Positions 4,204 to 28,852 of a DNA stretch of 33,979 nt are shown here, one piece after another. Position 1 is the first letter of the stretch. Every line of letters starts with the position of its first letter. Position numbers and translations under genes: made by a program. The stretch is from a virus: IMG/VR virus record IMGVR_UViG_3300047994_000577, positions 1 to 33,979 of that record; one strand, written 5' to 3'. The notes under the pieces were generated by a model, which made no database searches, was not told where the DNA came from, and worked only from the letters and a program-made list of their open reading frames with translations.

Positions 4204-4212
4204 AGGTGAATC

Positions 4213-7264: not shown

Positions 7265-7320
7265 ATTTCAGAATGGAAAAGTTTTTCTTTAACTTTGCCT
7301 TGGTTTAAGAGGCTAGAAGT

Positions 7321-9232: not shown

Positions 9233-9237
9233 TCCAC

Positions 9238-10317: not shown

Positions 10318-10329
10318 TGCGGGGGTCTG

Positions 10330-10695: not shown

Positions 10696-10707
10696 GAGGG
10701 GCGAGCA

Positions 10708-11552: not shown

Positions 11553-11601
11553 AAGTTCTGTCAGGCCAGCAAAAATCACTGATAGAAAAATAGATCTTTA
11601 G

Positions 11602-11633
11602 ACTCCGGGCTGTGTCCACAGCCTGGAGTTTTT
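11602..11633 (+). terminator. intrinsic terminator directly before a fibre gene
   Basis: A 12-bp stem (one G-U pair) joins 11602-11613 to 11618-11629, closed by a four-base loop and followed at once by a run of T (11629-11633). The downstream ATG starts at 11635, leaving no room for a new promoter. The 3' arm contains GGAG (11625-11628), the only ribosome binding site for that gene. The element therefore looks both terminating and translation-controlling. The downstream fibre would need readthrough or antitermination. Confidence 0.75.
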
Positions 11634-11634
11634 A

Positions 11635-15641: not shown

Positions 15642-15642
15642 G

Positions 15643-16338
15643 TTAGCTGGCTGAAAATCCAGCGGCGGCAACTGCATTTTTAATCGTGGCCGTGGTCAGG
15701 TAACCATCGATTGAATGTGGAGATTGCGGCGACATCGGATTGTGAACCAGGCAATCAGTGATCTGAATTCCGGAATAGAACGTAGATATTCCGTGCACGA
15801 GTGCTACGGGATCGAGCGGGTCATTGATATTCTGCCACGCCCTCACACCTGCTGGGGCTGGGAGCCCATTACTTCCATTCTCTTTGCGTAATTCAGCCAG
15901 GACAGATTCAAGGCCAAGCGGAGAACCAACAGTTAGATATAACTGGATGTCCGGCGTGAAGTTCTTGTATTTGCTGAAGTTTTTCAGGACGTCATAACTG
16001 ATGACAGTCCCCAGACTGTGCGAGAGCAGGACTGTCGGCTCTGGCGTGAGCTTGTCGATGAGCCTCTGATTGATTTGCTCTTTGATAGCAGCGTCGTAAA
16101 AATAGTTGTAGCAGTCGCCCAGAAAATGATTGTTTGTGCCGAGTTTATAGAGTTCGACCATAACATCGTCCATCAGCGACAGGTCACGAGGCTGCCTCAT
16201 GACGGACAGATCGGCCCAGAAAGCAAAATCAGCATTGGGAACATCCGGCTTACCGAACAGTTTTGTATTCCAGTCGGCCAGCAGGGTTGCGGGGTCCGTG
16301 CAGGATTCATTCATTCCGTGAATGTAGAGTAATTTCAT
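15643..16338 (-). CDS. lipase-like alpha/beta hydrolase
   Basis: A 231-aa alpha/beta hydrolase. The oxyanion strand LLYIHGMN opens the protein. The nucleophile elbow is LLSHSLGTV with Ser108 (Ser-His-Ser-Leu-Gly, a variant of Gly-His-Ser-Leu-Gly). The acid is probably Asp173 or Asp176 in INDPLDPV, and His208 in SPHSIDGYL completes the triad. It has no signal peptide. It lies opposite to the late operon, tail to tail with the adhesin gene (one base apart), with a small gene just upstream on the same strand. This is the layout of a lysogenic-conversion moron. The substrate is unknown. Confidence 0.75.
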   Translation of the reverse strand: MKLLYIHGMNESCTDPATLLADWNTKLFGKPDVPNADFAFWADLSVMRQPRDLSLMDDVMVELYKLGTNNHFLGDCYNYFYDAAIKEQINQRLIDKLTPEPTVLLSHSLGTVISYDVLKNFSKYKNFTPDIQLYLTVGSPLGLESVLAELRKENGSNGLPAPAGVRAWQNINDPLDPVALVHGISTFYSGIQITDCLVHNPMSPQSPHSIDGYLTTATIKNAVAAAGFSAS

Positions 16339-16341
16339 GCC

Positions 16342-16527
16342 TTAGGTGCTCTCTATTATTGGGCAAATCTCAGTCGAGAAAAAGTCGGAGCATTTACAGA
16401 CGATTTTTAAGATCGCAATGATCTCTGCTTCATCGATGTGCGGGATATTTGCACCCTGATCAATAAAGAATTCTTTTGTTGTGCCAGTTTGCACGGCTTC
16501 GCTGAAACGTTCTGCTATGTCATCCAT
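16342..16527 (-). CDS. small acidic protein upstream of the lipase-like gene
   Basis: A 61-aa frame (MDDIAERFSEAVQTGTTKEF at its start; Cys-Lys-Cys near the end) finishing three bases before the hydrolase start, so the two are likely one operon. The ribosome binding site is weak. It is acidic and mostly helical with no recognised domain. It could be a partner or immunity-type protein of the hydrolase, which is inference from position only. Confidence 0.5.
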   Translation of the reverse strand: MDDIAERFSEAVQTGTTKEFFIDQGANIPHIDEAEIIAILKIVCKCSDFFSTEICPIIEST

Positions 16528-16552
16528 GGCGACCAGTTTAGATAATTTCCAG

Positions 16553-16603
16553 CCAGGTAAGAAAAATCATTACTGTGCTCACGTGAATTATCAGATTACC
16601 TGG
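16553..16603. promoter_or_regulatory. inverted repeat in the divergent spacer before the sedolisin gene
   Basis: CCAGGTAA (16553-16560) is mirrored exactly by TTACCTGG (16596-16603), 35 bases apart, in the only gap between the leftward lipase pair and the rightward protease gene. The right arm overlaps the GGAG ribosome binding site of the protease. This could be a regulator site pair or an mRNA hairpin hiding the start. No convincing -35/-10 pair is visible. Confidence 0.45.
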
Positions 16604-16610
16604 AGCACTG

Positions 16611-17684
16611 ATGCATACCTCACGCAGATTTAAAACACGGGCGAGCGCAACGGCCCTGACTCCCACGCAAGTGGCAAAAGCCTACAATTTCCCGCTCGGC
16701 CAGGACGTCTCAAATAAAACAGTTGCAATTTTAGAACTTGGCGGCGCTTTCAATCTTGTGGACGTGGTTGCCTATTGCGCACGCTACAAATATAAATTGC
16801 CGCAAATTACAGCAGTCTTCGTTGACGGCGCGGCCGAACAGTCAGATCCTCAAGGCGCAGACGGCGAAGTATGTCTGGACATAGACGTTATTGCCGCAGT
16901 CGCAGAAGGCTGCAAAATCGTTGTCGTATTTGCTCCCAATTCCGATCAAGGATTCATCGACGGCGTTGCAAAGTGTATTGAACTTCAGCCTGATGCAATC
17001 TCGATTTCATGGGGTTCGCCCGAAGACGGATGGGCACCCGAAACCAGGACCGCGCTGGACAACCTATTTATGGATGCCGCCAGCAAATCAATTTCCGTTT
17101 TTTGTGCTTCCGGAGACAACGGCTCGAGCGACGGCGAAACTCTTGGCCAACACGTCGACTATCCGGCGAGCTCTCCTTATGTCATTGCATGCGGCGGAAC
17201 TCGCCTTGTGCTCAACGATGACGGCACAAGGTCAACTGAGACAGCCTGGAACTGCACTGGGCTCGATTTGCTCGGCAACATTGTCGGCAGCTCAGAAGGC
17301 GGCGGTGGTGGCGTGAGTGTTGCTTATAACTCCACTCCTACTTATCAAACTGGCCTGCTTCCCAATCTTCCGTCAGGTAGACGGTCGCCTGATGTATCAG
17401 GCAATGCAGATCCTGATACCGGCTACCTGGTAGATATTGACGGCACTATTCAACAGATTGGCGGTACTTCGGCCGTGGCGCCGCTTTACGCTGCTCTGCA
17501 ATGCCTCCTGAACTCGGCCAAAGGCGGAAAGCTTGGCGACATGCACGTAAGGTTTTATGGCAATCCGGGAAGCTTCTATGACGTCGTCAGCGGAAGCAAC
17601 GGCGCTTATAAAGCCGGCACCGGATACGACTGTGTGACCGGTCTTGGAGTAGTCGACGCAGCTGCGCTTTCAAAGGCAATCTGA
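16611..17684 (+). CDS. sedolisin (S53) serine-carboxyl protease, no propeptide
   Basis: This 357-aa protein aligns by eye with the catalytic domain of kumamolisin-type S53 peptidases. All key residues are visible: Glu86 and Asp90 in DGEVCLDID, Asp169 in CASGDNG, Ser287 in GGTSAVAP, and a C-terminal calcium-site pattern (Asp324 in FYDVVSG, then TGYDCVTGLG). The family motif ISISWGSPEDGW is also present. Most sedolisins carry a propeptide of nearly 200 residues and a signal peptide. Here the protein starts directly with the mature-type domain (ALTPTQVAKAYNFP) and has neither. A GGAG ribosome binding site supports the ATG. It lies between the adhesin and the lysis genes. Confidence 0.85.
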   Translation: MHTSRRFKTRASATALTPTQVAKAYNFPLGQDVSNKTVAILELGGAFNLVDVVAYCARYKYKLPQITAVFVDGAAEQSDPQGADGEVCLDIDVIAAVAEGCKIVVVFAPNSDQGFIDGVAKCIELQPDAISISWGSPEDGWAPETRTALDNLFMDAASKSISVFCASGDNGSSDGETLGQHVDYPASSPYVIACGGTRLVLNDDGTRSTETAWNCTGLDLLGNIVGSSEGGGGGVSVAYNSTPTYQTGLLPNLPSGRRSPDVSGNADPDTGYLVDIDGTIQQIGGTSAVAPLYAALQCLLNSAKGGKLGDMHVRFYGNPGSFYDVVSGSNGAYKAGTGYDCVTGLGVVDAAALSKAI

Positions 17685-17716
17685 TAGACAAATTTTCGGA
17701 TTAAAGAGGGGGGAGT

Positions 17717-17746
17717 GTTTCCCTGCAAAGTGAATACGAGGGAAAC
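17717..17746 (+). promoter_or_regulatory. hairpin sequestering the holin ribosome binding site
   Basis: GTTTCCCT (17717-17724) pairs perfectly with AGGGAAAC (17739-17746) around a 14-base loop. The 3' arm contains the AGGG of the GAGGG ribosome binding site (17738-17742) of the holin-like gene starting at ATG 17748. Folding would block initiation there. An alternative in-frame GTG at 17715, preceded by AGAGG, lies just before the hairpin, so ribosomes starting there would open it. This resembles the dual-start timing control of some holin genes. Confidence 0.6.
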
Positions 17747-17747
17747 C

Positions 17748-18107
17748 ATGAGCGAGGATAAAGAACGTGAACTTCAGCGAAATACTAGCGAATTCGATCT
17801 CTCTGTTAGTGGCTATCATATTGTGGATCTCACAACAGGAGAGTCTGCCGAGAATCCACTAGCTATACACGACCAGGTCAAGGCCGACAACGTGGCAGTA
17901 ATGTTTCGGATGACGTCTCTCTGGTTAGCGCACTGTCTGGTTCTGGGTATCTTCGCCGCCTCCTGCTGGGCGCAGCTGGGCTGCCAACCCCCCAAGGCTT
18001 TCGCCGTCCCCAATGAAGTACTGATGATAATTTTCGGCATATACGGCGGAAATTCTTGGAATTTCATAGGGAAATTGATATCCGCATGGCAAAACAGAGG
18101 CAAGTGA
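17748..18107 (+). CDS. holin-like membrane protein
   Basis: From ATG 17748 the protein has 119 aa; from GTG 17715 it would have 130. The N-terminal 50 residues are hydrophilic and charged. A strong transmembrane segment follows at about 55-77 (TSLWLAHCLVLGIFAASCWA), and a second weaker one at about 90-105 (VLMIIFGIYGGNSW), with a basic end (ISAWQNRGK). It immediately precedes the endolysin, the usual place for a holin. No family-specific motif is seen, so the call rests on topology and context. Confidence 0.6.
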   Translation: MSEDKERELQRNTSEFDLSVSGYHIVDLTTGESAENPLAIHDQVKADNVAVMFRMTSLWLAHCLVLGIFAASCWAQLGCQPPKAFAVPNEVLMIIFGIYGGNSWNFIGKLISAWQNRGK

Positions 18108-18137
18108 TACCACAAGATATGCACATAAATATATCTA

Positions 18138-18238
18138 GTAGTACTACAGATAGTATTAGTACTAAATGCGGTGCTTCACCATATATGGTACTAATACCGC
18201 ATGCGATACTTTCTGATATCTATATCTATATATCGCAT
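18138..18238. promoter_or_regulatory. AT-rich palindrome cluster between holin and endolysin
   Basis: The 149-base spacer holds an unusual density of dyads. There is a palindrome GTAGTACTAC (18138-18147) and a 10-bp inverted repeat GTATTAGTAC/GTACTAATAC (18153-18162, 18188-18197). A 7-bp repeat ATGCGGT/ACCGCAT (18166-18172, 18196-18202) competes with it. Palindrome ACCATATATGGT (18178-18189) and inverted repeat ATGCGATA/TATCGCAT (18201-18208, 18231-18238) follow. GTACTA occurs three times. No frame of useful length crosses it. Operators, alternating RNA folds delaying endolysin translation, or an origin-like site are all possible. Confidence 0.6.
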
Positions 18239-18256
18239 ATTATTCAGGGGTAGTTT

Positions 18257-18709
18257 TTGGGTATGCTCTTTCCTGAAAATATCATCAAAGCAGCCCAGGC
18301 GGCCCATCAGGTGACGGGGTGCCCGGCGTCGGTCACACTTGCCCAGTGGGCGCTTGAATCCGGCTACGGTAAATTCACCCCTCCTGGCTCGAATAACTAC
18401 TTCGGTATTAAGGCGGTGCCCGGCCAACCGTTTGTGCAGGTGCCGACCCACGAGTTCTACGGTGGGACCATGCACACGGAAGTGGCAAGGTTTGCGAAGT
18501 ACGAGACTATTGCTGACGGGTTTGAAGCTCACGCCCGGTTGCTCACGGATCCGCATGGTCCATACTCGGCTGCGCTCAGATATAAAAACAATGGGCTGCT
18601 ATTTGCGCAGGCAATTGCTTCCAGATATGCAACTGATCCGCGCTATGCCGACAAGCTAACCATGCTGATCAATCAAAATAAATTGCTTCAGTTCGATCAA
18701 TTGGTATAA
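18257..18709 (+). CDS. endolysin, glucosaminidase (FlgJ/LytG-like)
   Basis: A 150-aa lysozyme-superfamily N-acetylglucosaminidase. The hallmark is ALESGYGKF with the catalytic Glu at about residue 34, followed by SNNYFGIK, then FAKYETIADGFEAHARLL and IASRYATDPRYADKL. It cleaves the glycan strands of peptidoglycan. There is no signal peptide, so it depends on the holin. TTG at 18257 has AGGGG six bases upstream; ATG at 18263 is the alternative start and changes only two residues. It contains only the catalytic domain, without a cell-wall-binding repeat. Confidence 0.88.
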   Translation: MGMLFPENIIKAAQAAHQVTGCPASVTLAQWALESGYGKFTPPGSNNYFGIKAVPGQPFVQVPTHEFYGGTMHTEVARFAKYETIADGFEAHARLLTDPHGPYSAALRYKNNGLLFAQAIASRYATDPRYADKLTMLINQNKLLQFDQLV

Positions 18710-18794
18710 ATATTCCATGGCTCGGGACGGCGTGATGAGCAGTGATGTTCTAGCGGGTTCAGTTTAAGAGACAAACGGGCCGCCATTTTTTGAT

Positions 18795-18867
18795 ACTCCT
18801 GAGTCCTCACGGTAAAGGAGTCTCGCTCTAAACGAGAACGTTGCGCGTTCAACTCGCGTCAGGAGTA
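18795..18867 (+). tRNA. tRNA-Sup, anticodon CUA (amber suppressor type)
   Basis: A complete 73-base cloverleaf. Acceptor ACTCCTG/CAGGAGT has seven Watson-Crick pairs. The D arm is TCCT/AGGA with loop CACGGTAA carrying the GG pair. The anticodon arm is TCTCG/CGAGA with seven-base loop CTCTAAA, giving anticodon CTA (18828-18830) after the conserved U33. The variable region is ACGTT. The T arm is GCGCG/CGCGT with loop TTCAACT, matching the TTCRANY consensus. The discriminator is A and CCA is not encoded. A8 and C14 replace the usual U8-A14 pair. CUA reads the UAG stop codon. Stop-recoding phages are known to carry such tRNAs. I cannot tell which amino acid it would carry. Confidence 0.87.
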
Positions 18868-18872
18868 AGTTT

Positions 18873-19175
18873 TTGAATTCAGGCGAAATTATCGAAATTG
18901 TTCAGCTGGGCATGGAGGCTCTGAAGGAACTCCCCGGCTGGCTGAAGAGTTTCAAGAGCCGGAAAGTAAAGTCTGAACTTGAGGCAAAAGCCGAACAGAA
19001 TCGGCAGTGGGTTTATGATCGCGAGAAGAAGGCCCATGATGAAGTCTGCGATTGTATGAACCATGAGCGCCACACTTGGACCTGTCCATGCGGTACGACT
19101 AGCACTGCTTATACGAGCATGCAGCCTTACTGTATTTTGTGCCGACAGAAGGAAAATGACGCCATGAAACTATAG
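18873..19175 (+). CDS. small zinc-ribbon-like protein
   Basis: A 100-aa protein from a TTG start. Its ribosome binding site AGGAG (18861-18865) lies inside the 3' acceptor strand of the upstream tRNA, so tRNA folding or processing may affect its translation. The N-terminal half is helical and charged (FKSRKVKSELEAKAEQNRQW). The C-terminal half has paired Cys/His residues (CDCMNHERHTWTCPCG, then YCILC), consistent with a zinc ribbon. Function is unknown. It ends in TAG (19173-19175), with TGA five codons later. Confidence 0.65.
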   Translation: MNSGEIIEIVQLGMEALKELPGWLKSFKSRKVKSELEAKAEQNRQWVYDREKKAHDEVCDCMNHERHTWTCPCGTTSTAYTSMQPYCILCRQKENDAMKL

Positions 19176-19229
19176 ATCAGACCACCGCCCTGAGAAGTGC
19201 CAACTACTCACACTTCCAGGAGATTTACC

Positions 19230-19544
19230 GTGAACGATCAACAGTATTTTTATGTCGTTGTCCGAAAAGACATCTCAATAGCGGACCAGATATGCCAGGT
19301 CGCACATGCAGCTGCTGAGGCCGGGAGGCTTTTCCAGGTGCCTGAGCGCACCTTTTTGGTGCTTCTTGCTGCGGCTGACAAGGCTGAGCTCTTGGCCATG
19401 AAAGAGCGAATGGTCAAACATAATATCCGCGTGGTAATGATGGATGAGCCGGACGACGACCTGGGCGCGACGGCCCTGGCGACGGAAGCCATAGCTGGAG
19501 ACAAGCGCAATTATTTGCGACACTATAAAATTTGGCGTCCATAA
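19230..19544 (+). CDS. PTH2-type peptidyl-tRNA hydrolase-like protein
   Basis: I chose GTG 19230 because AGGAG lies eight bases upstream, giving 104 aa. The sequence follows the PTH2 fold: YFYVVVRKDISIADQICQVA with HAAAEAGRL (strand, Lys-containing loop and AQVAHA-like helix), TFLVLLAAADKAELLAMKER, HNIRVVMMDEPDDDLG and a C-terminal strand. PTH2 enzymes release peptides from peptidyl-tRNA after ribosome drop-off, and phage relatives are common but little studied. Here the gene lies 360 bases after a suppressor-type tRNA, suggesting a joint translation role. Confidence 0.7.
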   Translation: MNDQQYFYVVVRKDISIADQICQVAHAAAEAGRLFQVPERTFLVLLAAADKAELLAMKERMVKHNIRVVMMDEPDDDLGATALATEAIAGDKRNYLRHYKIWRP

Positions 19545-19564
19545 AACTGTGCTTATCATTGGGC

Positions 19565-19747
19565 ATGTTTGGCGATCACTACATTGGCACAAGTCTCGAG
19601 CATGAGGGTGAAGAAACCTGGTGCGACATCGTTGTCCCGTGGTGGTATGCCCTCGGTGTCCGGCTGAAATTCTGGGTGGGTGTCTATGTTGAGAAATGCA
19701 TTAGTCTGCTTGATCGTCTTATGGGCTGTGACGGCGAGACCAGCTGA
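19565..19747 (+). CDS. small protein of unknown function
   Basis: A 60-aa frame from ATG 19565, 20 bases after the PTH2 gene, overlapping the next gene by 62 bases in another frame. It has a Trp/Val-rich amphipathic middle (WCDIVVPWWYALGVRLKFWV). The ribosome binding site is weak. Nested small genes behind lysis genes are sometimes spanin pairs, but no lipobox is present, so this is only a context-based thought. Confidence 0.4.
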   Translation: MFGDHYIGTSLEHEGEETWCDIVVPWWYALGVRLKFWVGVYVEKCISLLDRLMGCDGETS

Positions 19748-19982
19748 GGCCGGCCCGCTCAAGCGCTGCTGGACGAGAGCCAAGCAGATAACCATAAACA
19801 CTCTTTCCGTGCCTTTCCTTTTGATGACCGGTGTCGGCATGGGAGCGGAGTGGTGTTACGACCGCCTGCAGGAGAGGTCGCAACAGATCATTCTTGATCA
19901 ACAGGACTTGATAAAGCGCACCACAGAAAGACCATTTGACGAAGACGACCTGTGGCCAGGCCGGCTAGAGCAGGATGCGTAA
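19686..19982 (+). CDS. small exported or membrane protein with signal-like N-terminus
   Basis: ATG 19686 gives 98 aa starting with a signal-like segment (LRNALVCLIVLWAVTARPAEA-G). A second hydrophobic stretch follows (INTLSVPFLLMTGVGMGAEW), then a charged helical C-terminus (YDRLQERSQQIILDQQDL). It is the last rightward late gene before a terminator. A spanin-like or envelope role is possible, but no diagnostic motif is seen. Confidence 0.55.
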   Translation: MLRNALVCLIVLWAVTARPAEAGPLKRCWTRAKQITINTLSVPFLLMTGVGMGAEWCYDRLQERSQQIILDQQDLIKRTTERPFDEDDLWPGRLEQDA

Positions 19983-20419: not shown

Positions 20420-20584
20420 CTAATTGGCAATTGCCCAGCAGGTTTGGAAGACGACTATCAATACCTGGCAGAACTCGGCTGTGATATGCACCATGCCAAG
20501 AATCATGCACAAGAATGCTAAGAAGGCCAGCCGGCCGTCACGTATTTCTAGTTTGATTGGAATCATAGCCTTCCTGTTCATCAT
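20420..20584 (-). CDS. small membrane protein, TAG stop
   Basis: A 54-aa frame from ATG 20584 (further ATG choices at 20638, 20581 and 20569) overlapping the end of its upstream neighbour by about 47 bases. One hydrophobic segment is evident (LAFLAFLCMILGMVHITAEF, then LIVVFQTCWAI). It ends in TAG (20420-20422), with TAA nine codons later. Its overlap and position fit the operon pattern, but there is no family match. Confidence 0.4.
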   Translation of the reverse strand: MMNRKAMIPIKLEIRDGRLAFLAFLCMILGMVHITAEFCQVLIVVFQTCWAIAN

Positions 20585-20837
20585 GCTTCCACTCAGAGTA
20601 GTCTGCAATGATGACTTCCTCGTCTGGGCCCCATCCATAGTCTTCGGTCATTAATTTGCCGTCTTTTACTTGCGTATAATCGGAACAGTGCCATTGTGTA
20701 TTGTGACCGGCGTGCTCCTTCCCCTTTGGACTTTCAGGCCAATAAGCCCGAAGCTTTTCTATGTAGCCGCCTCCGCCATAACCCAAATAGACCTCGGTTT
20801 TGCAATCAAAACATAGAACTGATAGCGGTTGTCCCAT
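20538..20837 (-). CDS. hypothetical protein with a Cys pair
   Basis: A 99-aa protein from ATG 20837, in a TAAAATG junction with the phosphatase gene upstream. The N-terminus contains VLCFDCKTEVYLGYGGGGY, a CxxC pair typical of small metal-binding phage proteins. The rest is acidic and aromatic (EDYGWGPDEEVIIADYSEW). Function unknown. Confidence 0.6.
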   Translation of the reverse strand: MGQPLSVLCFDCKTEVYLGYGGGGYIEKLRAYWPESPKGKEHAGHNTQWHCSDYTQVKDGKLMTEDYGWGPDEEVIIADYSEWKHDEQEGYDSNQTRNT

Positions 20838-20838
20838 T

Positions 20839-21294
20839 TTAGAAATCACCCGGCGCGACCTGGGCGCAAACGAGGCCAGCGTCGCGCCAGGCCTGGACAA
20901 CAGAATTGCGGTCGTCTATCGCGAGGAAAGGCCGCCATCCTTCCGCCCTCAGCTTCTCTAAAATTTCGAGCTTAAACACGACATCATGCCGGGTATCACC
21001 GTCTTCCCTCAAGTAGAGCTTGTGCGGATAAAACCACAGTTCGTTTTTCCGTAGCCATCTGAGAGTCACGTCGTAGTCGTGGGCCGCTCGGCCAGAAACG
21101 TAAATCACAGGGTAGTCACGGTGAAGCGCCTGGACCATACGCTTGACCGGTTCGATCACTCTGTCTTTAATCACGAGCTTCGGATCCAGGAAACTCTTGA
21201 AGTCCTTCTCACCGTTCGGGCGCTCGACAAAATGTCGACGATGGGTGCAATCGGCGAGTGTTCCATCGATATCACAAATTACAGCCTCTGTCAT
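20839..21294 (-). CDS. Pnkp-like HAD phosphatase (polynucleotide 3'-phosphatase type)
   Basis: The 151-aa protein is the phosphatase half of T4 polynucleotide kinase, without the kinase half. HAD motif I is CDIDGTLAD (Asp8, Asp10), motif II is IYVSGRAA (Ser67), the Lys is in FKLEIL (Lys108), and motif III is AIDDRNSVVQAWR (Asp127, Asp128). The ending QVAPGDF is characteristic of T4 Pnk-like proteins. T4 Pnk heals RNA or DNA ends, including tRNAs cut by host anticodon nucleases. No RNA ligase is visible in the window. It starts in an ATGA overlap. Confidence 0.85.
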   Translation of the reverse strand: MTEAVICDIDGTLADCTHRRHFVERPNGEKDFKSFLDPKLVIKDRVIEPVKRMVQALHRDYPVIYVSGRAAHDYDVTLRWLRKNELWFYPHKLYLREDGDTRHDVVFKLEILEKLRAEGWRPFLAIDDRNSVVQAWRDAGLVCAQVAPGDF

Positions 21295-21593
21295 TTCTTT
21301 ATCGCCTCCTTTATCAGATCGCTCTTCACGTTATCGCACCACTCAACCCACGATTTTGATTCGCTGGCGAGCTTCGACAAAACGTGCTTCACGTAATACG
21401 GCGCCATGGCGATTTCTTCGGGCGTCATGTCTTCAGCCATCTTCCCTGCCACGGCGAGCATCGAGGCCATGAAAACAAACTTTGAGGCAAGCTCGATCTT
21501 ATCGTTGTCGATCTTGACCGTGTACTGCAGGGGCTTCGGCGCGTGACAAAACTTGCAGCCAGCTTCGTCGTATTCGTGTTGGCAATAGCTCAT
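21291..21593 (-). CDS. hypothetical early protein with Cys/His N-terminus
   Basis: Start chosen at ATG 21593 (ATGA overlap with the preceding gene), giving 100 aa. The N-terminus has CQHEYDEAGCKFCHAPKP, a likely metal-binding knuckle. The remainder is helical (IELASKFVFMASMLAVAGKM, then MTPEEIAMAPYYVKHVLSKL). It ends in an ATGA overlap with the phosphatase gene. Function unknown. Confidence 0.6.
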   Translation of the reverse strand: MSYCQHEYDEAGCKFCHAPKPLQYTVKIDNDKIELASKFVFMASMLAVAGKMAEDMTPEEIAMAPYYVKHVLSKLASESKSWVEWCDNVKSDLIKEAIKK

Positions 21594-21802
21594 TCGACTA
21601 TCTCCGCTGTCAGTGTCCATAACTTAAAAGTGCCTTCAGTCTCGGGCCACTTCTCGACGCAATGTTTTAACGCTTCCTGAGGGTGCATGATCACACTCGC
21701 CCTCTTGAAATTTCGCGTCAGGTAGAGATCCAGTCCGAACGCTGTTTCTTCATGCACGATCCAAGTGCTGCCGGGCCCTGATATCAGCCAGCCGTAATCC
21801 AT
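21590..21802 (-). CDS. hypothetical small early protein
   Basis: A 70-aa protein (MDYGWLISGPGSTWIVHEET at the start; HPQEALKHCVEKWPETEGTF inside) from ATG 21802, two bases after the TAG of the upstream gene. Overlap with the next gene is ATGA. No domain is recognised. Alternating hydrophobic residues suggest a small alpha/beta fold. Confidence 0.6.
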   Translation of the reverse strand: MDYGWLISGPGSTWIVHEETAFGLDLYLTRNFKRASVIMHPQEALKHCVEKWPETEGTFKLWTLTAEIVE

Positions 21803-21804
21803 CG

Positions 21805-21990
21805 CTAGTCACTCTCCGCAATACGTATGTCTTTAATAATCTCTTCTGGCTGCTCCATGACTTCAATCAGGCCGTGACAGTCGGTCTCTATTTGGGTGCC
21901 TTCAATGCCGTAACGCCGTAGCGTGCATACGTCCGAGGCGCGAATCCAAATAGTCTTGCCTGTCATTAGGGTTAGTTTGATGAAACTCAC
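21805..21990 (-). CDS. hypothetical small early protein, TAG stop
   Basis: A 61-aa beta-rich protein (FIKLTLMTGKTIWIRASDV; GTQIETDCHGLIEVMEQPEE). This resembles small phage proteins related to FlbD-like domains by pattern only. GTG start at 21990 with GGAGG about ten bases upstream, in a GTGA overlap with the amber-interrupted gene. It ends in TAG (21805-21807), with TGA six codons later. Confidence 0.6.
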   Translation of the reverse strand: MSFIKLTLMTGKTIWIRASDVCTLRRYGIEGTQIETDCHGLIEVMEQPEEIIKDIRIAESD

Positions 21991-22193
21991 CGATTTTTAG
22001 CCTCCAATCTATCCATCTCTTTGCTGAGAGCTTGCATGCTAATTTGATATTCACCTACAGCGTCTTCGGTGCGGCCACACTAATACTCTAACGACGGCTT
22101 GTCCGCTGGGTGCGATGAGTATTCACAGCGGCAGCAGAAAAACTCGCAGCAGCAACATCTCTCGGCAATACCCGATGATTTACAGTCGCTCAC
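21987..22193 (-). CDS. amber-interrupted early gene (in-frame TAG at codon 38)
   Basis: From GTG 22193 the frame runs 37 codons, meets TAG at 22080-22082, and continues 30 sense codons to TGA at 21987-21989. The start overlaps the upstream stop by GTGA and the final TGA overlaps the next gene's GTG by GTGA. Both junctions therefore match operon spacing only if the TAG is read through. The first part is Cys-rich (RCCCCEFFCCRCEY, then HPADKPSLEY), possibly metal-binding. The part after the TAG is a charged helix (QISMQALSKEMDRLEAKNR) like the C-termini of neighbouring early proteins. With a CUA-anticodon tRNA in the window, I read this as one 68-residue gene translated by amber suppression. A sequencing error or decayed gene is the alternative. 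Confidence 0.6.
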
Positions 22194-22540
22194 TTATTAG
22201 CCTCCTGCTCTAGCCGCTCCAGTTCTTTATTCAGAGTGTCAATCATCCACTTCGCCCTGGCCACGTCGACGCCCTCGCCGGCATGGTGGTTTAGCGGCAC
22301 CATAGCGCCGCCGGGCAGCACTACATAACACGGGTCATGCGGCCCTGGGTCGTCGTGGAAACTGAATCTGTCACCTATTTTAAAGTCCAGGCGCTTGTAG
22401 GGTGGAAATTCTATTTCGTTGCGTACTCGGTAGATTCCCGCCGCTATCTCTAACGCTTCGGGCAAGCTGTGGATATAGTTGCAGCCTGCAATATTTATGC
22501 AGACGTCAGTGCGGTCTTCGCGCCATCTGAAGATTCTCAT
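22190..22540 (-). CDS. hypothetical early protein
   Basis: A 116-aa protein from ATG 22540 (ATGA overlap with the upstream gene). The N-terminal half is beta-like (RIFRWREDRTDVCINIAGCN), the middle is Pro/Asp/His-rich (FHDDPGPHDPCYVVLPGGAM), and the C-terminus is a charged helix (WMIDTLNKELERLEQEANK). It ends in TGA within the GTGA overlap that starts the amber-interrupted gene. Function unknown. Confidence 0.65.
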   Translation of the reverse strand: MRIFRWREDRTDVCINIAGCNYIHSLPEALEIAAGIYRVRNEIEFPPYKRLDFKIGDRFSFHDDPGPHDPCYVVLPGGAMVPLNHHAGEGVDVARAKWMIDTLNKELERLEQEANK

Positions 22541-22797
22541 CGTCGGACTGTCTCCTTAGTCTGTCGGCCGTGGATTAGACAGCACGTGCAATGCACCGTC
22601 ATTGACATCGTTACCACTGTCGGGTCTGCTCGCCTGAGCACGTCCATTGCTTTCAGGACTGACGCGCCTGTAAGACTCGGATCTTCTTTAAGGTCCACGT
22701 ATTTCTTGCCACAGGCCAAGCAGTGACAAATTTTGTAAGGCCCGCTAGACCAACGGTGGCGGCCATGTGTGCTGGCAGTGCATTTAATTAGTGCCAT
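22537..22797 (-). CDS. zinc-ribbon-like early protein
   Basis: An 86-aa protein with a Cys cluster typical of small phage zinc ribbons (YKICHCLACGKKYVDL) and a second one near the C-terminus (VHCTCCLIHGRQ). Four Cys in two pairs could bind one metal ion. It starts at ATG 22797, overlapping the preceding gene by 14 bases. Function unknown. Confidence 0.6.
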   Translation of the reverse strand: MALIKCTASTHGRHRWSSGPYKICHCLACGKKYVDLKEDPSLTGASVLKAMDVLRRADPTVVTMSMTVHCTCCLIHGRQTKETVRR

Positions 22798-23023
22798 CGG
22801 TTGTGCCCTTGATTCGACCTAACACGGCATCGCACACCATCTTGTCCACGCCTTCGCCTGGGTACTCGCAGCGCTCAAGCAGCTCCGCTATGATGTCGGC
22901 GATAATTTCAAGCCCAGCTTCGTAGTAGTGAACGGCCTCATCTAGCTCTTTATCTTCTGCTCTGTTGCGCGCCTTGATGATCTTGTCTTCAGCGTTGACA
23001 ATGTTCATGGTTAATTTCGTCAT
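22784..23023 (-). CDS. helical early protein
   Basis: A 79-aa acidic, helical protein (KLTMNIVNAEDKIIKARNRA; YYEAGLEIIADIIAELLERC). ATG 23023 shares its A with the preceding TAA (TAATG). No domain is recognised. It may be a small coiled-coil partner in a complex with neighbouring early proteins. Confidence 0.55.
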   Translation of the reverse strand: MTKLTMNIVNAEDKIIKARNRAEDKELDEAVHYYEAGLEIIADIIAELLERCEYPGEGVDKMVCDAVLGRIKGTTDGTN

Positions 23024-23463
23024 TATTCCTCCCTGTCGTAATGCCCGAGGGCGTCAGTGAGAGCTGCCATGTCGGCGGCATCAGAATCGTCTTCTCTCTG
23101 CATCCCTGCAGCTATCGCTTGAAGTGCTTCTCCCGGCGTTTTCATTCGCCCGGTGTATGGCTGGCATGGCTCGTCTTCGCATCCGTGGCCGACATGCCAG
23201 AGGCCGTCATTATCAACCAGCAGATTTATCCATTCGCCACAGCCCATTATTCCGCAAGGAAATTCACGACTGAACAGTTCGGGCAACTTCTCTACCGTGT
23301 CCCAATTGGCAGCTTTAACTTCCAGCTCATCAAGTTCGGCTTTCAGCAGCGCGTATGCTTTATGGCGTGGCGTATCGAGTTCGCGCACATCGAATGGTCC
23401 GGTGGCGTGCTCTCTTTCAAGGTTGACATAGTCTGCCAATAACTCTAACAATTTCTCGTTCAT
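23023..23463 (-). CDS. early protein of the mosaic coiled-coil family
   Basis: ATG 23463 has a perfect GGAGG ribosome binding site and an ATGA overlap, giving 146 aa. A helical N-terminus (NEKLLELLADYVNLEREHAT) is followed by AANWDTVEKLPELFSRE, a module also present in the next gene upstream in the operon (RNWDMLERLPELLD). The C-terminal half has CGIMGCGEWINLLVDNDGLW with further Cys/His, then PGEALQAIAAGMQ. Function unknown. The shared modules suggest these early genes arose by duplication and domain shuffling. Confidence 0.65.
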   Translation of the reverse strand: MNEKLLELLADYVNLEREHATGPFDVRELDTPRHKAYALLKAELDELEVKAANWDTVEKLPELFSREFPCGIMGCGEWINLLVDNDGLWHVGHGCEDEPCQPYTGRMKTPGEALQAIAAGMQREDDSDAADMAALTDALGHYDREE

Positions 23464-24314
23464 TTCCCCTCCAAAGCAGCGGATAGTGCGGTGGCGGCAG
23501 ACGGACAATTCTGTGCTATGTAAGGCAAGTCGTCACCGGAAATATCGTATGCCCCTAAATGCCAGCGCGTCCCAAGAGGATTGTTAGATACAGTAACCGC
23601 AATAGTTATCGCCACTGCATCGTCGGTCGAATCTAACAACTCAGGCAGCCGCTCAAGCATGTCCCAGTTGCGGGCTTTCTCTTCGGCTTGCATGGCTCTT
23701 TCTGCCCACATGTTTCGCTGCCTATCAATACCTGCAACGAGCTCTTCCAGTTTTTGCCGACTGGCGTTTTCAATACAAGCTAACTCGGCCGGGCGCCATT
23801 CTCCAGCTTTCAGCTCGTCGCGTTCGGCCTCGATCCGATTGATAGCACCCCTCAGCGCACAGGTTTGATTGGCACCGTTAACATGACCATAATCAGCCTG
23901 CCCTCTAGCAGCCATCTTACCCTCGTCAAAAGCGTTCCCCAGAGCATCTTCTAATAGCTGGTCAAAGCTAGCCGTGGAGTCAAGCAGTGCATTAGCTTCT
24001 TCTAGATCGACTTTTAGGCCGTCGCGCTCTTTGTTCAGGCGCTCAATCCCCGGCAATATCTCGGGCAATATATCCGTGCCAAGCTTCAGATCCAGCGCTT
24101 TGCCAATGGCCTGGACGTCCCAAGTCGACTGAAGCTGCATGGCCGATTCTTTCCAGTAGGCCAGGGCGTCGCGTTCTGCCTCAAGTTTCTCAATGGCGCC
24201 CAGAAGTGCGTTTCTTGTCTCCACTTTTCTGGCATGCAATTCAGGCGACTCGCATGCATAGGAATGAAGCTCGAAGTCACCTACCAGCTTGCGCATCTCT
24301 TCACTTATTGGCAT
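23460..24314 (-). CDS. long coiled-coil early protein
   Basis: ATG 24314, with GGAGG five bases upstream, gives 284 aa. The protein has long charged helices (LGAIEKLEAERDALAYWKES; LKVDLEEANALLDSTASFDQ) and two recurrent modules. One is QAIGKALDLKLGTDILPEIL with PGIERL, shared with the gene at 27523-28017. The other is RNWDMLERLPELLD, shared with the gene at 23023-23463. The end has a beta part (VAITIAVTVSNNPLGTRWHL). The N-terminal PISEEMRKL matches the start of the next upstream gene. No enzymatic motif is seen. Confidence 0.65.
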   Translation of the reverse strand: MPISEEMRKLVGDFELHSYACESPELHARKVETRNALLGAIEKLEAERDALAYWKESAMQLQSTWDVQAIGKALDLKLGTDILPEILPGIERLNKERDGLKVDLEEANALLDSTASFDQLLEDALGNAFDEGKMAARGQADYGHVNGANQTCALRGAINRIEAERDELKAGEWRPAELACIENASRQKLEELVAGIDRQRNMWAERAMQAEEKARNWDMLERLPELLDSTDDAVAITIAVTVSNNPLGTRWHLGAYDISGDDLPYIAQNCPSAATALSAALEGK

Positions 24315-24544
24315 TGCTCCTCCCATATGTTGAAATCATTCAGCAAATTTGTCTTTTCCAGAAACTGTAGATGCTGAAGATTTTGCGATAACGCGCGATC
24401 AAGCTCTCTTTTATGAGCTTCCAGATCCGCCTCAAGCTTCTCGATGGCAGCAACCAGCAGCGCCTCGCTAGGCGAATCCATACTGCTGTTGTAGTGCTCG
24501 TCGGCAGCTGCATTAATCAGCTTCTTCATTTCTTCGCTAATCAC
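24305..24544 (-). CDS. short coiled-coil early protein (paralogue)
   Basis: I chose GTG 24544, with GGAGG five bases upstream, giving 79 aa beginning VISEEMKKLINAAADEHYN. The segment NSSMDSPSEALLVAAIEKLE is almost identical to one in the upstream gene, so one of the pair is probably a partial duplicate. The rest is a charged coiled coil (LDRALSQNLQHLQFLEKTN). Function unknown. Confidence 0.6.
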   Translation of the reverse strand: MISEEMKKLINAAADEHYNSSMDSPSEALLVAAIEKLEADLEAHKRELDRALSQNLQHLQFLEKTNLLNDFNIWEEQCQ

Positions 24545-25040
24545 TCGCACCTCCCATCAATCCATCACCGCCGCCAAGCCTGACAATATTCGGCGCGCAA
24601 TCAAGCTGCTTTTCGAACCTCTCAATGCCGCCGTCTATCTTCTCGTCGGCCTTGGGCGCTTCGCCGAGCTGCACTATCTGATTCCTATACCTCGCTATTT
24701 TTCGGCGGTAGAGCATGGCTAGGTTTTTCCATGCTGCTTCGCGCTTCTCGATTTCGGCGACTAAAAGCGCCTCACTCGGCGAGTCCATAGAGCTGTTGTA
24801 ATGTTCATCGGCGGCGGCATCTATTAACTTCTGTAGATATTCGCTATCACAGATTTTCTCCTTCGGCTTGACGCCATACTCGCTCGGCCAAAACCAGCGT
24901 TTGCAGTCCGGGCATTGTTTCTGCTTCACGCCCTTAGCTACCATCTTGTCGCCATGGATGAAAAACCCGATGTAACTTCGCTGGCCAGCGATGTAACTGC
25001 GCTGGCCAGGCTTGTGCCATGGGCAGAGAAGGGTATTCAA
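24537..25040 (-). CDS. early protein with Cys pair and duplicated segment, TAG stop
   Basis: TTG 25040 has GGAGG seven bases upstream and a TTGA overlap, giving 167 aa. The first 30 residues include a tandem seven-residue repeat (GQRSYIA/GQRSYIG) from a 21-bp DNA repeat. A CPDCKRWFW Cys pair follows, then the NSSMDSPSEALLVAEIEKRE segment shared with the downstream gene, then a basic helix. If ATG 24944 were the true start, the tandem repeat would be untranslated. It ends in TAG (24537-24539), with TAA seven codons later. Confidence 0.55.
   Translation of the reverse strand: MNTLLCPWHKPGQRSYIAGQRSYIGFFIHGDKMVAKGVKQKQCPDCKRWFWPSEYGVKPKEKICDSEYLQKLIDAAADEHYNSSMDSPSEALLVAEIEKREAAWKNLAMLYRRKIARYRNQIVQLGEAPKADEKIDGGIERFEKQLDCAPNIVRLGGGDGLMGGASD
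24969..25010. repeat. 21-bp tandem duplication
   Basis: Two adjacent 21-base units (24969-24989 and 24990-25010) differ at two positions. They fall in frame near the start of the overlapping early gene and encode the repeated GQRSYI peptide. It looks like a recent slippage duplication. Confidence 0.75.
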
Positions 25041-25246
25041 GACTTCGCCTCCAGTCTCCGAAACTCATCAATTAAAGCGCAGCTTTCTTTGTATAGGGGA
25101 TGCTCAGTGGGCAGCTCTATAAGCCAGCCGCCAAGTTTTCTGCACCAATCATCCCAAGTGAGCATTGCATCGCAGCGAGTGGCGACAGCCTCTAAGTATT
25201 CGCCTTCTGTAATGAATGGGCCAAAGTCAGTCCTGATTCTGCTCAC
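25037..25246 (-). CDS. hypothetical small early protein
   Basis: A 69-aa protein (SRIRTDFGPFITEGEYLEAV; MLTWDDWCRKLGGWLIELPT) with GTG start in a GTGA overlap and TGA overlapping the next TTG. Trp-rich and acidic. No domain recognised. The four-base overlaps at both ends support it as a real gene. Confidence 0.6.
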   Translation of the reverse strand: MSRIRTDFGPFITEGEYLEAVATRCDAMLTWDDWCRKLGGWLIELPTEHPLYKESCALIDEFRRLEAKS

Positions 25247-25518
25247 GGCTTCTCAACCTCATCTGCAATAGCGTCTTTAATCAACGCTATATTTAGCTCT
25301 GTCAGCGGCCCACTGACGAACTGGGCGTGCATAGCCAAGAGCTTGCGCAGATTCTTAAGCCGCTCGCTCTCTGGTTTTGGGAACAGTTCGTTTAAAAGTT
25401 CGTTGCGCAGGTCGTGAGTAAAATCATCGAATCCATAACCCTTCGAGCTATGCAATAGACCCGAATTATTCAAGATGACTTTGTAGATAATCTGGGCTGC
25501 TTCTTCTCTTGTAGTCAT
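25243..25518 (-). CDS. hypothetical helical early protein
   Basis: A 91-aa protein (TTREEAAQIIYKVILNNSG; DDFTHDLRNELLNELFPKPE; then a helical end with LRKLLAMHAQFVSGPL). ATG 25518 lies in an ATGA overlap. No known motif is visible. The pattern suggests a small all-helical protein. Confidence 0.6.
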   Translation of the reverse strand: MTTREEAAQIIYKVILNNSGLLHSSKGYGFDDFTHDLRNELLNELFPKPESERLKNLRKLLAMHAQFVSGPLTELNIALIKDAIADEVEKP

Positions 25519-26045
25519 GATTTCCCCGTTGCGACTGGCCGCTCAATGCTGATACTTAGAAACTTTTCTGAATGATTTAACGCCACGACCCAGCCTTTGG
25601 CGTGAAACAAATCATGGATTTCGTCAAAATCCGCCTCTGATGCTGAATCTCTAAATTCAGACTCATAGAAGCCGAAAGCTGTTGGTGCCTCTCTCATAGC
25701 TTTCAATATGCGTCCGATGAACAGTTCGGCTACTGTTGGCGGCCTCACATCCGATGGCTCAGGTATCTTCAACTTAGTAGCGCGGGCTTCTATTTGTAAT
25801 TCGGCCATCTCTTCATCAGACAGCACACCCTCCCAATCGTCAGGCAGGCCACCATGTGACGCGCCAATCTCGGCCAGTTCAAGGATGGCGTAAATCTGAG
25901 ACTTCGAATACTGCTTCCACGCCTGCGATGGCGACAATGGCTCGCCGGCGCTGTTTTCTCTGTAGAACGTATCCAGCAGCTTGCGCGCCTCTGGCAGGAA
26001 TTTCCGCTGATTTATTGGTTGGTTTACGTTGTCGAATATTTCCAT
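25515..26045 (-). CDS. hypothetical early protein
   Basis: ATG 26045 forms a TGATG junction with the methyltransferase gene and has GGAGA upstream, giving 176 aa. The sequence is helical in the first two thirds (QRKFLPEARKLLDTFYREN; QAWKQYSKSQIYAILELAEI; TVAELFIGRILKAMREAPTA). A small beta end contains GWVVALNHSEKFLSISIERP. No recognised domain. Confidence 0.6.
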   Translation of the reverse strand: MEIFDNVNQPINQRKFLPEARKLLDTFYRENSAGEPLSPSQAWKQYSKSQIYAILELAEIGASHGGLPDDWEGVLSDEEMAELQIEARATKLKIPEPSDVRPPTVAELFIGRILKAMREAPTAFGFYESEFRDSASEADFDEIHDLFHAKGWVVALNHSEKFLSISIERPVATGKS

Positions 26046-26743
26046 CAGCGAATCTCCGGAGGTACGAACAAAACAAACATATTGCCACCGCATGGCGAGC
26101 CCGCTTTGAGCAGATCGTTACCGTCACCGTCGCGCGGTGGAATGAATCTAATGCGGCCGTCGCCGTCCTCAACATAAGGCGTCTTCGCTATCGGCTTTAC
26201 GTATTTTTTGTACCATTTAGTATCTCTACTATTCGGCAACAAACATAGCACCGACGCGCCGCGCTGAGATTCTTCGTAGGCCTTCGCGACGAACTTACCC
26301 AGCAGCTGCTGGGAGTAGGGCGGGTTCATCCAGAAGTAGGGCTTGAGGCCCCAGATTTCTGCTTCACGACACCAATCGACTTCAAGAGCGGACTTGATCG
26401 CGAGTGTGAAAAATTTAGGGCATTTAGTATTTTCAGAATTGGCGCAAGCATCTATCTGCGGCATGAAGTTGAACTGCTTGCATATTGCTTCGTAACTGCC
26501 TTGTGGCGTCTCCCAGCAGTCAGTGAGCAGCACCCCGTCAGCATCTCTAAGCCTGACTTTCTTTGCCTTCTTCTTCTGAAACTTCTCAGCCATCTCATAG
26601 AGTTCATCTCTGCTCAAAGAGAATCGTTCCATGAAACTATTCAGAGTTTCGGGGTATGGTATTTGAGCTACAAGAGCATTAGGCCACGGTTTGAGGCCGT
26701 CCATTTCCGACGGAGGATTGTCGTTATTAGGAACTTTGAGCAT
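26045..26743 (-). CDS. phage DNA N6-adenine methyltransferase (Dam type)
   Basis: The core matches the phage Dam family: CWETPQGSYEAICKQFNFMP, IDACANSENTKCPKFFT, the catalytic motif FWMNPPYSQQLLGKF, and SVLCLLPNSRDTKWY with GRIRFIPPR. It transfers a methyl group from S-adenosylmethionine to adenine N6, probably to protect phage DNA. The frame is open to 26836, but that would overlap the membrane gene by 88 bases. ATG 26743, five bases after the membrane gene's stop, gives 232 aa and fits the operon better. Its ribosome binding site is weak. Confidence 0.85.
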   Translation of the reverse strand: MLKVPNNDNPPSEMDGLKPWPNALVAQIPYPETLNSFMERFSLSRDELYEMAEKFQKKKAKKVRLRDADGVLLTDCWETPQGSYEAICKQFNFMPQIDACANSENTKCPKFFTLAIKSALEVDWCREAEIWGLKPYFWMNPPYSQQLLGKFVAKAYEESQRGASVLCLLPNSRDTKWYKKYVKPIAKTPYVEDGDGRIRFIPPRDGDGNDLLKAGSPCGGNMFVLFVPPEIR

Positions 26744-26748
26744 TTTAC

Positions 26749-26940
26749 TCAGCCATTCATCATCTGGTCTATGCAATACATAGTCGCCATGAAACTGGCC
26801 CCAAAAGCCCACATAACAATCAGAACTCCAAACCACTCAATCGGCGCCCACAGGAGCCACCAGGGCAAGTAGAAAACGTTGTCCTGACTCAGGAGGAGAA
26901 GCACCTGAAAAAACAACACCCAGCAAATCACGACAACCAT
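26749..26940 (-). CDS. small two-span membrane protein
   Basis: A 63-aa, very hydrophobic protein with two probable membrane spans (VVVICWVLFFQVLLLLS; APIEWFGVLIVMWAFGASFM) and a Trp-rich link (YLPWWLLW). ATG 26940 lies one base after the TGA of the LuxR-type gene. Membrane proteins in early operons sometimes act in superinfection exclusion, which is inference here. Confidence 0.6.
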   Translation of the reverse strand: MVVVICWVLFFQVLLLLSQDNVFYLPWWLLWAPIEWFGVLIVMWAFGASFMATMYCIDQMMNG

Positions 26941-26941
26941 C

Positions 26942-27172
26942 TCAAGTCCCCTTCGACGTGACTGTCACGCCAGGAAGTTTAATCAGCCCCATCTGCACAC
27001 CTTTAAGTGCCGCCTCCACCCTGCTGGTTACTTTGAGCTTTTTGAATATGACCTCAACGCGATGCTCGACCGTGCGATGCTTAATCCCAAGGTCAGAGGC
27101 GATCTCTTTGTTGGTCATATCGAGGCGGATGAGTACATCATGCTCGCGCTCGGAAAGCTCACCAAGAATCAT
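26942..27172 (-). CDS. stand-alone LuxR-type HTH protein
   Basis: The 76-aa product is little more than a GerE/LuxR helix-turn-helix: LSEREHDVLIRLDMTNKEIA, DLGIKHRTVEHRVEVIFKKL, then VTSRVEAALKG. No receiver or ligand-binding domain is present, so it resembles GerE-like single-domain regulators. It overlaps the excisionase-like gene by ATGA. It could regulate phage or host promoters; I see no neighbouring site that identifies its target. Confidence 0.82.
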   Translation of the reverse strand: MILGELSEREHDVLIRLDMTNKEIASDLGIKHRTVEHRVEVIFKKLKVTSRVEAALKGVQMGLIKLPGVTVTSKGT

Positions 27173-27522
27173 GCCTCTGCCCCAACCGGCTCGGCATTCT
27201 CGGCCGGGCCCAGGACAACCGGCAGGGATGCGGCGATTTCTCTCGAAAGTGAGTTGAGCTCCGGCGCCAGAGAAACTGCCACAGACTTGGCATTCTTTGG
27301 CGAATTCTCGGCCTTTTCAAACCAATCGTTCACGGCAAGTATGTGATAACTGACTGTGCGATAACCTTTGCGATGCGGCGGACCGTCGCTGTTGCGGATT
27401 CTTTCTCGCAGCCAGCCAAGACTGACTCCATACTTGCCGGCAACTTGGGCTGGCGTCAGCCAAATTTGGCCGGGCAATATGTCGCTCGACTTACGTTTCT
27501 TCTTGTGCAATATTCTGGACAT
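27169..27522 (-). CDS. excisionase/AlpA-like winged-HTH protein
   Basis: A 117-aa protein whose residues about 20-68 fit the small MerR/excisionase HTH: WLTPAQVAGKYGVSLGWLRE, RIRNSDGPPHRKGYRTVSYH, ILAVNDWFE. The N-terminus is basic (HKKKRKSS). The C-terminal 45 residues are Ala/Glu/Pro-rich. Such proteins serve as excisionases or early regulators. It is far from the integrase, so a regulatory role is as likely as directing excision. Confidence 0.7.
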   Translation of the reverse strand: MSRILHKKKRKSSDILPGQIWLTPAQVAGKYGVSLGWLRERIRNSDGPPHRKGYRTVSYHILAVNDWFEKAENSPKNAKSVAVSLAPELNSLSREIAASLPVVLGPAENAEPVGAEA

Positions 27523-28017
27523 TTATACCTTCTCCTTCATCATGTCTTCTAGTGCTTTCATAAAATCAGTCCCTGAGCCATAGATAAAGTGTCTATTTAC
27601 GTCTGTCTGGTAAAGCGAACTAATCATGAACTCATCGTTCGGCTTCATCACTATGGACAAATGCCCGCGGGTCTTTACGATTACTTCCAGCGCATCATGC
27701 GCCAGAACCTTGGGAGCGAACTCCTGGCACCGGGTCTTCAAGGTTTGAAGGCCGGGCAATATGTTCACGCCTATACTGTCTCCAATCTGAAGATCGAAAA
27801 CTTCGCCAATCTCCTGCCATGGCAGGCTGCCATAAACTCTGTCGGACTCAGATTTGAAGTGCCTCAAGTCCTCAAGCTCTCGCTCAAGCGCCTCGATATT
27901 TTCATTGAAAGCATTCAGCTTTTCAGAGAAGGCATCCTGGTCAACAACTTCTTTATTGACGTGCTTTGAGATTTCCCTGAACGCATCAAGAAGAAGCTCC
28001 GATCTAACACTGTCCAA
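27523..28017 (-). CDS. early protein of the mosaic coiled-coil family
   Basis: TTG 28017 has GGAGG eight bases upstream and overlaps the previous gene by 14 bases, giving 164 aa. A coiled-coil N-terminus (KLNAFNENIEALERELEDLR) leads into QEIGEVFDLQIGDSIGVNIL with PGLQTL, nearly the same module as in 23460-24314. A small alpha/beta end follows (HLSIVMKPNDEFMISSLYQT). Function unknown. Confidence 0.6.
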   Translation of the reverse strand: MDSVRSELLLDAFREISKHVNKEVVDQDAFSEKLNAFNENIEALERELEDLRHFKSESDRVYGSLPWQEIGEVFDLQIGDSIGVNILPGLQTLKTRCQEFAPKVLAHDALEVIVKTRGHLSIVMKPNDEFMISSLYQTDVNRHFIYGSGTDFMKALEDMMKEKV

Positions 28018-28852
28018 GTTCAGGCCCTCCGGAAGTTGGAATCATGGGGACTTCGCAAGCACGCCGGCGGACTATTTGGTCGCACTCCACGTCCAGCAGG
28101 GCTGCGCCGCGGGTGAGCATTTTTGTCAGGTGCATTTCTGAGAAGGCTGGCTCTTTGTCCTGGGCGATGTAAGTGAAAGCATGGCCGTAGAACATATGGG
28201 CATCTTTCTTTGTCAGTGCCCGAATCTTGAGAGTGGCTCCATTGAAAAATTGGAACTCTTGTAGAGCCGGACGGTATACCCACATATCGGCATGTGGCCC
28301 GCATGCCTCTTTTAGTTTCTCAATCAAAAGTTTTGCTTTTTGCGAAGAGCTGCGGACCATGAGTCCTTTGAATTTTCCGCCCTGCTCTGCCAGAAGCTCA
28401 GCTGCCCCACGAAGCTGCACGGCATCATAGCCGTCATCAGTCGAGAGAAGCCGGCGCTCATATTTATGGTCGATCCACTTTTTGAGCTCCGCGTGGACGG
28501 CACGGTGCCGCAATTTCAGAAACTTGATGCGCGTCTGGAGTTTTGCAGCCAGTCTGCCGTTGCGTTTTGCGACGTCTTTCCAAACCATTGCATTAGCCTG
28601 GAATTTTGCACTTTGTTTAGTGCTTTGCTTCAGGTTTTCTGTTAAACCATTGATGATTCGCTCGTTTGCTGCATTCAACGAACGAAGTATTTCAGCGTCC
28701 TCAGTCTGCTCTTTCAACTCAAGGTCGAGAATATTGTCGCGCTGCGTCTCGCCGAGGTTCAGCGACGCCCAGGCCATGACCACCAGGTACGTGAAAAACA
28801 CGTTACCTATAGCCCACCAGAAATCGAGCTGGAACCAGAAACTATCGGTCAT
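28004..28852 (-). CDS. membrane-anchored coiled-coil protein with terminase-like C-terminal segment
   Basis: The 282-aa protein starts with one transmembrane segment (FWWAIGNVFFTYLVVMAWAS), followed by a coiled coil to about residue 130. The last 110 residues resemble the ATPase-domain core of phage large terminases: GLMVRSSSQKAKLLIEKL (like the LIFRRTYPQL helix), GATLKIRALTKKDAHMFYGH, FTYIAQDKEPAFSE (Walker B-like, with Lys in place of the usual catalytic acid) and HLTKMLTRGA. No Walker A loop is visible. It may be a decayed or repurposed packaging ATPase. This is a by-eye resemblance only. Confidence 0.45.
   Translation of the reverse strand: MTDSFWFQLDFWWAIGNVFFTYLVVMAWASLNLGETQRDNILDLELKEQTEDAEILRSLNAANERIINGLTENLKQSTKQSAKFQANAMVWKDVAKRNGRLAAKLQTRIKFLKLRHRAVHAELKKWIDHKYERRLLSTDDGYDAVQLRGAAELLAEQGGKFKGLMVRSSSQKAKLLIEKLKEACGPHADMWVYRPALQEFQFFNGATLKIRALTKKDAHMFYGHAFTYIAQDKEPAFSEMHLTKMLTRGAALLDVECDQIVRRRACEVPMIPTSGGPELGQC

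Follow-up and report, generated by a model that had tools for sequence, protein, structure and literature searches.

The A1 coat extension of phage Q-beta is produced by readthrough at a leaky UGA using a host tRNA. Amber suppressor tRNAs are carried by the recoded phages that use code 15, crAss-like phages and others, and these phages have TAG reassigned within their structural and lytic genes (PMC9523058; PMC11210395, citing Borges 2022; PMC10879173), while no recoding has been seen in their early-infection proteins (PMC9523058). Stenotrophomonas phage Summit (95.7 kb, 5 tRNAs) uses the standard code and has one predicted amber suppressor tRNA for which no plausible target was found (PMC9022506). 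The locus described here is in a virus record of 33,979 bases, and the whole of this stretch is called the window. Like the recoded phages, it has a tRNA with a CUA anticodon and a coding-like frame that is broken by TAG, but here one early gene is affected and no TAG lies within the long late genes. Like Summit, this phage is tailed, has a single amber tRNA, and ends about a dozen genes in TAG; unlike Summit, it has one candidate target, TAG 22080, and the window has one tRNA whereas Summit has 5. What we propose resembles Q-beta A1 in that a leaky stop would divide a short from a long product, both made from one start, and differs from it in that the stop is UAG, its context is poor, and the phage itself supplies the cognate tRNA.

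The tail, fibre, and lysis genes of the window are on the plus strand (83-19982), the early operon occupies 29453 to 20538 on the minus strand, and the right end has an integrase gene, which makes it probable that the phage is temperate. Two genes of unusual cargo are between the tail fibre and the lysis genes, namely, a lipase/LCAT-like gene at 15643-16338 (a weak assignment) and a gene for a serine protease of the subtilase family at 16611-17684 (PF00082). The features that are needed for the argument are the following.

18257 to 18709, plus strand: endolysin, glucosaminidase-type, directly upstream of the tRNA gene (Pfam PF01832, E 2e-26; PHROG endolysin families)
18794 to 18868, plus strand: tRNA gene with a CUA anticodon, amber-suppressor type (ARAGORN; Rfam RF00005, 48.7 bits, gathering score 29)
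20538 to 29453, minus strand: early operon with 23 genes; apart from the junction behind TAG 22080, every junction is within -14 to +7 nt
21805 to 21990, minus strand: downstream operon gene, 61 aa, start GTG 21990 with its own GGAGG, terminating in TAG
21987 to 22079, minus strand: post-TAG extension, 30 open codons, its TGA (21989-21987) within the GTGA of the next gene
22080 to 22193, minus strand: Cys-rich 5' half, 37 codons and then TAG (22082-22080), with the Shine-Dalgarno (SD) sequence AGGAGG 7 nt before GTG 22193
22190 to 22540, minus strand: upstream operon gene, 116 aa, overlapping the frame by 4 bases, C-terminus MIDTLNKELERLEQEANK
25037 to 25246, minus strand: operon gene with a tail-like C-terminus, ALIDEFRRLEAKS, from the C-terminal alignment

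The minus-strand frame from GTG 22193 to TGA 21987 has exactly one internal stop when it is translated, the TAG at 22080-22082; it reads VSDCKSSGIAERCCCCEFFCCRCEYSSHPADKPSLEY up to this codon and CGRTEDAVGEYQISMQALSKEMDRLEAKNR from there to the closing stop. It shares the four bases GTGA with each neighbour gene, and the upstream gene ends in AAG TGA, within GTGA 22193-22190. Thus, the single in-frame TAG and the four-base overlaps on both sides that were described in the initial annotation were confirmed by translation and by the gene ends. The 5' half has a low codon score, at least partly due to its Cys richness, and therefore its coding status rests on the operon packing and on its SD sequence. 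The downstream gene has a weak match to phrog_21271 (E 0.001), and since GGAGG is 10 nt upstream of GTG 21990 this gene is translatable without readthrough. It had also been claimed that a true stop would leave a gap with no good start. This holds between the TAG and 21990, where only ATG 22037, ATG 22016, TTG 22007, and ATT 22043 are found and none is good, but it does not hold for GTG 21990 itself, which has the GGAGG.

The DNA itself shows one TAG in the frame, an overlap at either end, the tRNA gene, and a coding-like tail, and from this we propose that 21987-22193 is one 68-codon early cistron in which TAG 22080 is conditionally read through by the phage's own CUA tRNA. We give this a probability of roughly 0.4 and put it first because the tail looks maintained and the cognate tRNA is present.

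The first line of evidence is the packing of the operon. Taking the operon genes from our own curation of mechanical open reading frames, so that the count depends on the choice of starts, 21 of the 22 junctions are within -14 to +7 nt and nine are exactly -4, the commonest value. One start was corrected before counting, the Dam gene being taken from ATG 26743. The sole outlier is a gap of 89 nt if TAG 22080 terminates translation, and it becomes -4 if the codon is read through. By itself the overlap geometry is only moderately surprising, because a GTGA start always gives TGA in one of the three phases and the probability that 30 codons are free of stops is 0.15-0.24, to be multiplied by 1/3 for phase. 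A chance look-alike is present in the same operon, where readthrough of TGA 26942 would give 34 open codons ending beside GTG 26836; the DNA of this look-alike is occupied by another gene, 26940-26749.

These considerations bear on the explanation that TAG is the true stop of a 37-aa Cys-rich peptide and that the following 89 nt serve as a leader for the next gene or hold a tiny re-initiated ORF, for example from ATG 22037 (MQALSKEMDRLEAKNR), translation of which would open the ribosome-binding site of GTG 21990. The GGAGG of GTG 21990, the ordinary use of TAG as a stop in this phage, the TGA that any GTGA supplies in one phase, and the odds of about 0.15-0.24 for a 30-codon open frame all agree with this. 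It would, however, leave the only gap in the operon that is larger than 7 nt, and there is no good SD sequence before ATG 22037. We also considered whether RNA structure hides the SD sequence of the downstream gene and set this aside, no significant structure being predicted. Similarly, a frameshift in place of readthrough was rejected as the other two frames on the same strand close after 7 and 8 codons.

The second line of evidence is the tail itself. Eighteen residues at the end of the tail were compared with the C-termini of 22540-22190 and 25246-25037 by ungapped BLOSUM62 scoring anchored at the stop, with 104 out-of-frame stop-ended peptides as controls, and the scores were 34 and 32. 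The controls had best scores averaging 17.7, and none of the 104 reached 34. When the tail was shuffled, its best score was reached in 0.1% of the trials (0.001) and its best two scores in none. This C-terminal likeness is partly forced: in all three genes the next gene's GGAGG lies in these codons, and an SD sequence at such spacing before GTGA itself forces Glu-Ala in the frame of the tail, a point in favour of the true-stop explanation. The match extends upstream beyond the codons that encode the SD, which argues against that explanation, and altogether we consider a true stop rather improbable. As observations in their own right, three operon genes (at 21987-22050, 22190-22252, and 25037-25098) share similar helical C-termini, RLEAK or RLEQEANK, and the GGAGG of the following gene, which starts with GTG or TTG, is embedded in the codons for these ends. 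Hence a 3'-end coupling module appears to be repeated at these three places, through duplication or convergence. Elsewhere in the operon, two adjacent genes at 24305-25040 share a stretch of 111 nt that is 74% identical (AADEHYNSSMDSPSEALLVA), a partial duplication.

The full codon score of the tail is equalled or exceeded by 63% of true coding windows and by 1.2% of out-of-frame windows on the same strand. The score for synonymous choice only is not coding-like, 30 codons being too few for such statistics. A structure model made from the single sequence, which is of low confidence (mean pLDDT 57), has a helix at residues 45-67 with pLDDT 76-82 in its last blocks. The operon packing, the C-terminal similarity to the sister genes, and the coding-like codon score together mean that the post-TAG frame behaves as part of a 68-codon gene. 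The tail is part of the gene now, or was until very recently.

The words until very recently are needed because a recent nonsense mutation would account equally for the operon packing and for the coding-like tail. If this is the case, then the ancestral cistron was a normal one of 68 codons, with sense at 22080, and the mutation sits in this phage individual or in a defective prophage copy. The gene, now truncated, would have no function or be dispensable, and the tRNA would serve some other purpose. In-frame stops are widespread in prokaryotic genes, and many are regarded as short-lived (PMC7918605). The left end of the window also has some bearing on this. Its first 98 positions (1-98) hold a near-perfect palindrome of 48 nt joined to a tail gene that is truncated at its 5' end, whereas L003, a contig from another sample, is identical from window position 99 onward and continues upstream (4115-5074) with an intact tail gene and a tape-measure-like gene. 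The left end may reflect true rearrangement, mark the edge of a prophage, or be an artefact of assembly, and the hairpin with the truncated gene, unlike L003, is in keeping with an element that may be rearranged and so with a nonsense mutation. Against it, no other gene of the early operon was seen to be obviously interrupted, and the element carries the cognate suppressor tRNA. A nonsense mutation fits nearly as well as conditional readthrough, and we regard it as possible, though on the unlikely side.

L003 bears as well on the explanation that 22080-22082 is an assembly or consensus error and that the real codon is sense. The site is on a single contig, no second contig covering it having been found, which leaves room for such an error. 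L003 is 100% identical to the window over 6431 shared bases, which indicates that the assembly is generally accurate, and single-base substitutions are rare in assembly consensus. We therefore consider an error at this codon very improbable.

Searches for relatives of the 68-aa protein gave no homologue by tblastn in phages and plasmids, where low-complexity filtering may mask the Cys-rich half, nor in PHROGs, Pfam, and PDB, nor in pattern scans of IMG/VR with the protein and with a degenerate PSLEYxCGRTED pattern. Matches to the Cys motif in IMG/VR look like spurious low-complexity matches, and those that were inspected share only the Cys pattern. With the neighbouring genes as queries, no relative of the operon was found in the collections searched. 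As to the host, the only clues among genome contigs were distant integrases, and a tail protein of the phage particle had no match in two groups chosen by guess, a phylum (297 genomes) and a class (289 genomes).

The tRNA gene at 18794-18868 is, as judged from its sequence, a genuine tRNA, with a cloverleaf fold of -25.4 kcal/mol. ARAGORN labelled it tRNA-Pyl, but it does not look like a reduced tRNA of that type, having a regular cloverleaf, GG in the D-loop, UUC in the T-loop, and a variable loop of 5 nt. The bases U8 and A14 are nearly universal in tRNAs. In the Rfam alignment this tRNA has A8 and C14 instead, and it has no encoded CCA, and for these reasons its activity is not guaranteed. 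A suppressor-type tRNA 3 kb away had been pointed out in the initial annotation and the distance is correct, but the gene is on the strand opposite to the early operon, the late strand, in the lysis region behind the endolysin. No sigma-70-like promoter was found just upstream of it. Being on the late strand without a promoter-like site just upstream, the CUA tRNA is likely made later than the early operon.

A parent for this tRNA was looked for by a DNA search of 142 genomes, which gave no match, and the sole exact match to its anticodon arm, in L137, is not a tRNA. The 3' acceptor strand (AGGAG, 18861-18865) is also a well-spaced SD sequence (7 nt) for an ORF that starts at TTG 18873, and thus one transcript could be the tRNA precursor or the leader of this ORF but not both. 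Just downstream of the tRNA, 19197-19544 has a weak similarity to PTH2 (peptidyl-tRNA hydrolase; Pfam 13.3 bits, below the cut-off). The early gene at 20839-21294 has a polynucleotide kinase 3'-phosphatase domain (HAD_PNKP, E 5e-31), and this gene and the encoded tRNA might be linked through the repair of cleaved tRNA.

TAG is a working stop in this phage and is not reassigned. It terminates 10 of the 50 curated genes, the one under discussion and 9 others, and none of the long late genes, which reach 838 aa, contains a TAG, their frames being open under table 11. Recoded phages have TAG inside structural and lytic genes, and this phage fails these defining features; also unlike them, it does not avoid TAG, which ends about a fifth of its genes. 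Reading TAG as sense joins only one in-frame pair among the late genes, at 10317, and for 8 of the 9 other TAG-ended genes the gain from readthrough is 5-17 codons. The late TAG at 10315-10317 stands between two in-frame genes, 9217-10317 and 10330-10695, which are four codons apart, so that suppression would fuse both. This fusion was rejected as a real target because the downstream gene alone matches phrog_1084 nearly end to end. Amber suppression is favoured by purines at +4 (PMC6266110). The base after TAG 22080 is U (UAG-U), a poor suppression context, and no stimulatory RNA structure is predicted around the codon (fold z +1.5). It had been suggested that this gene is the best candidate for dedicated suppression. 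It is indeed the best among the TAG-ended genes of the window, where the ninth of the others is the gene fusion, but neither the word dedicated nor the switch between an early and a late product that was also suggested is supported, since TAG commonly terminates genes of this phage, the context is UAG-U, a stimulatory RNA structure is not predicted, the tRNA is on the late strand, and the searches gave no homologue in which the TAG or the tail is conserved. A recent nonsense mutation would explain the same data.

Returning to conditional readthrough, we propose that it would work as follows. Ribosomes would start at GTG 22193 and, in cells where the CUA tRNA is absent, would stop at TAG 22080 and release the 37-residue Cys-rich peptide. 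The tRNA is probably transcribed together with the late and lysis genes, and once it is present some ribosomes would insert an amino acid at the TAG and add the helical tail of 30 residues. These ribosomes would then terminate at TGA 21989-21987, within the GTGA of the next gene, in the manner of the other coupled junctions in the operon. We infer in this that the tRNA is expressed and charged, that it acts at TAG 22080, and that two products are made with this timing. A selected, timed switch accounts for only about half of the figure given above for conditional readthrough, the alternative within it being an amber mutation that is tolerated, the phage having a suppressor of its own. It is accordingly doubtful that a late-strand amber tRNA serves as a timer in a temperate phage of otherwise standard code, with the short Cys-rich form made early and the long form with the helical tail made late. 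What would be novel in this rests on a putative link between the tRNA and the site.

In phages of otherwise standard code, lone amber tRNAs still lack an explanation. If TAG 22080 is used, then it would be a concrete target for an amber tRNA and the basis of a simple two-product switch. If, instead, it is a tolerated mutation, it would be an example of the drift toward recoding that is open to a phage with a suppressor of its own.
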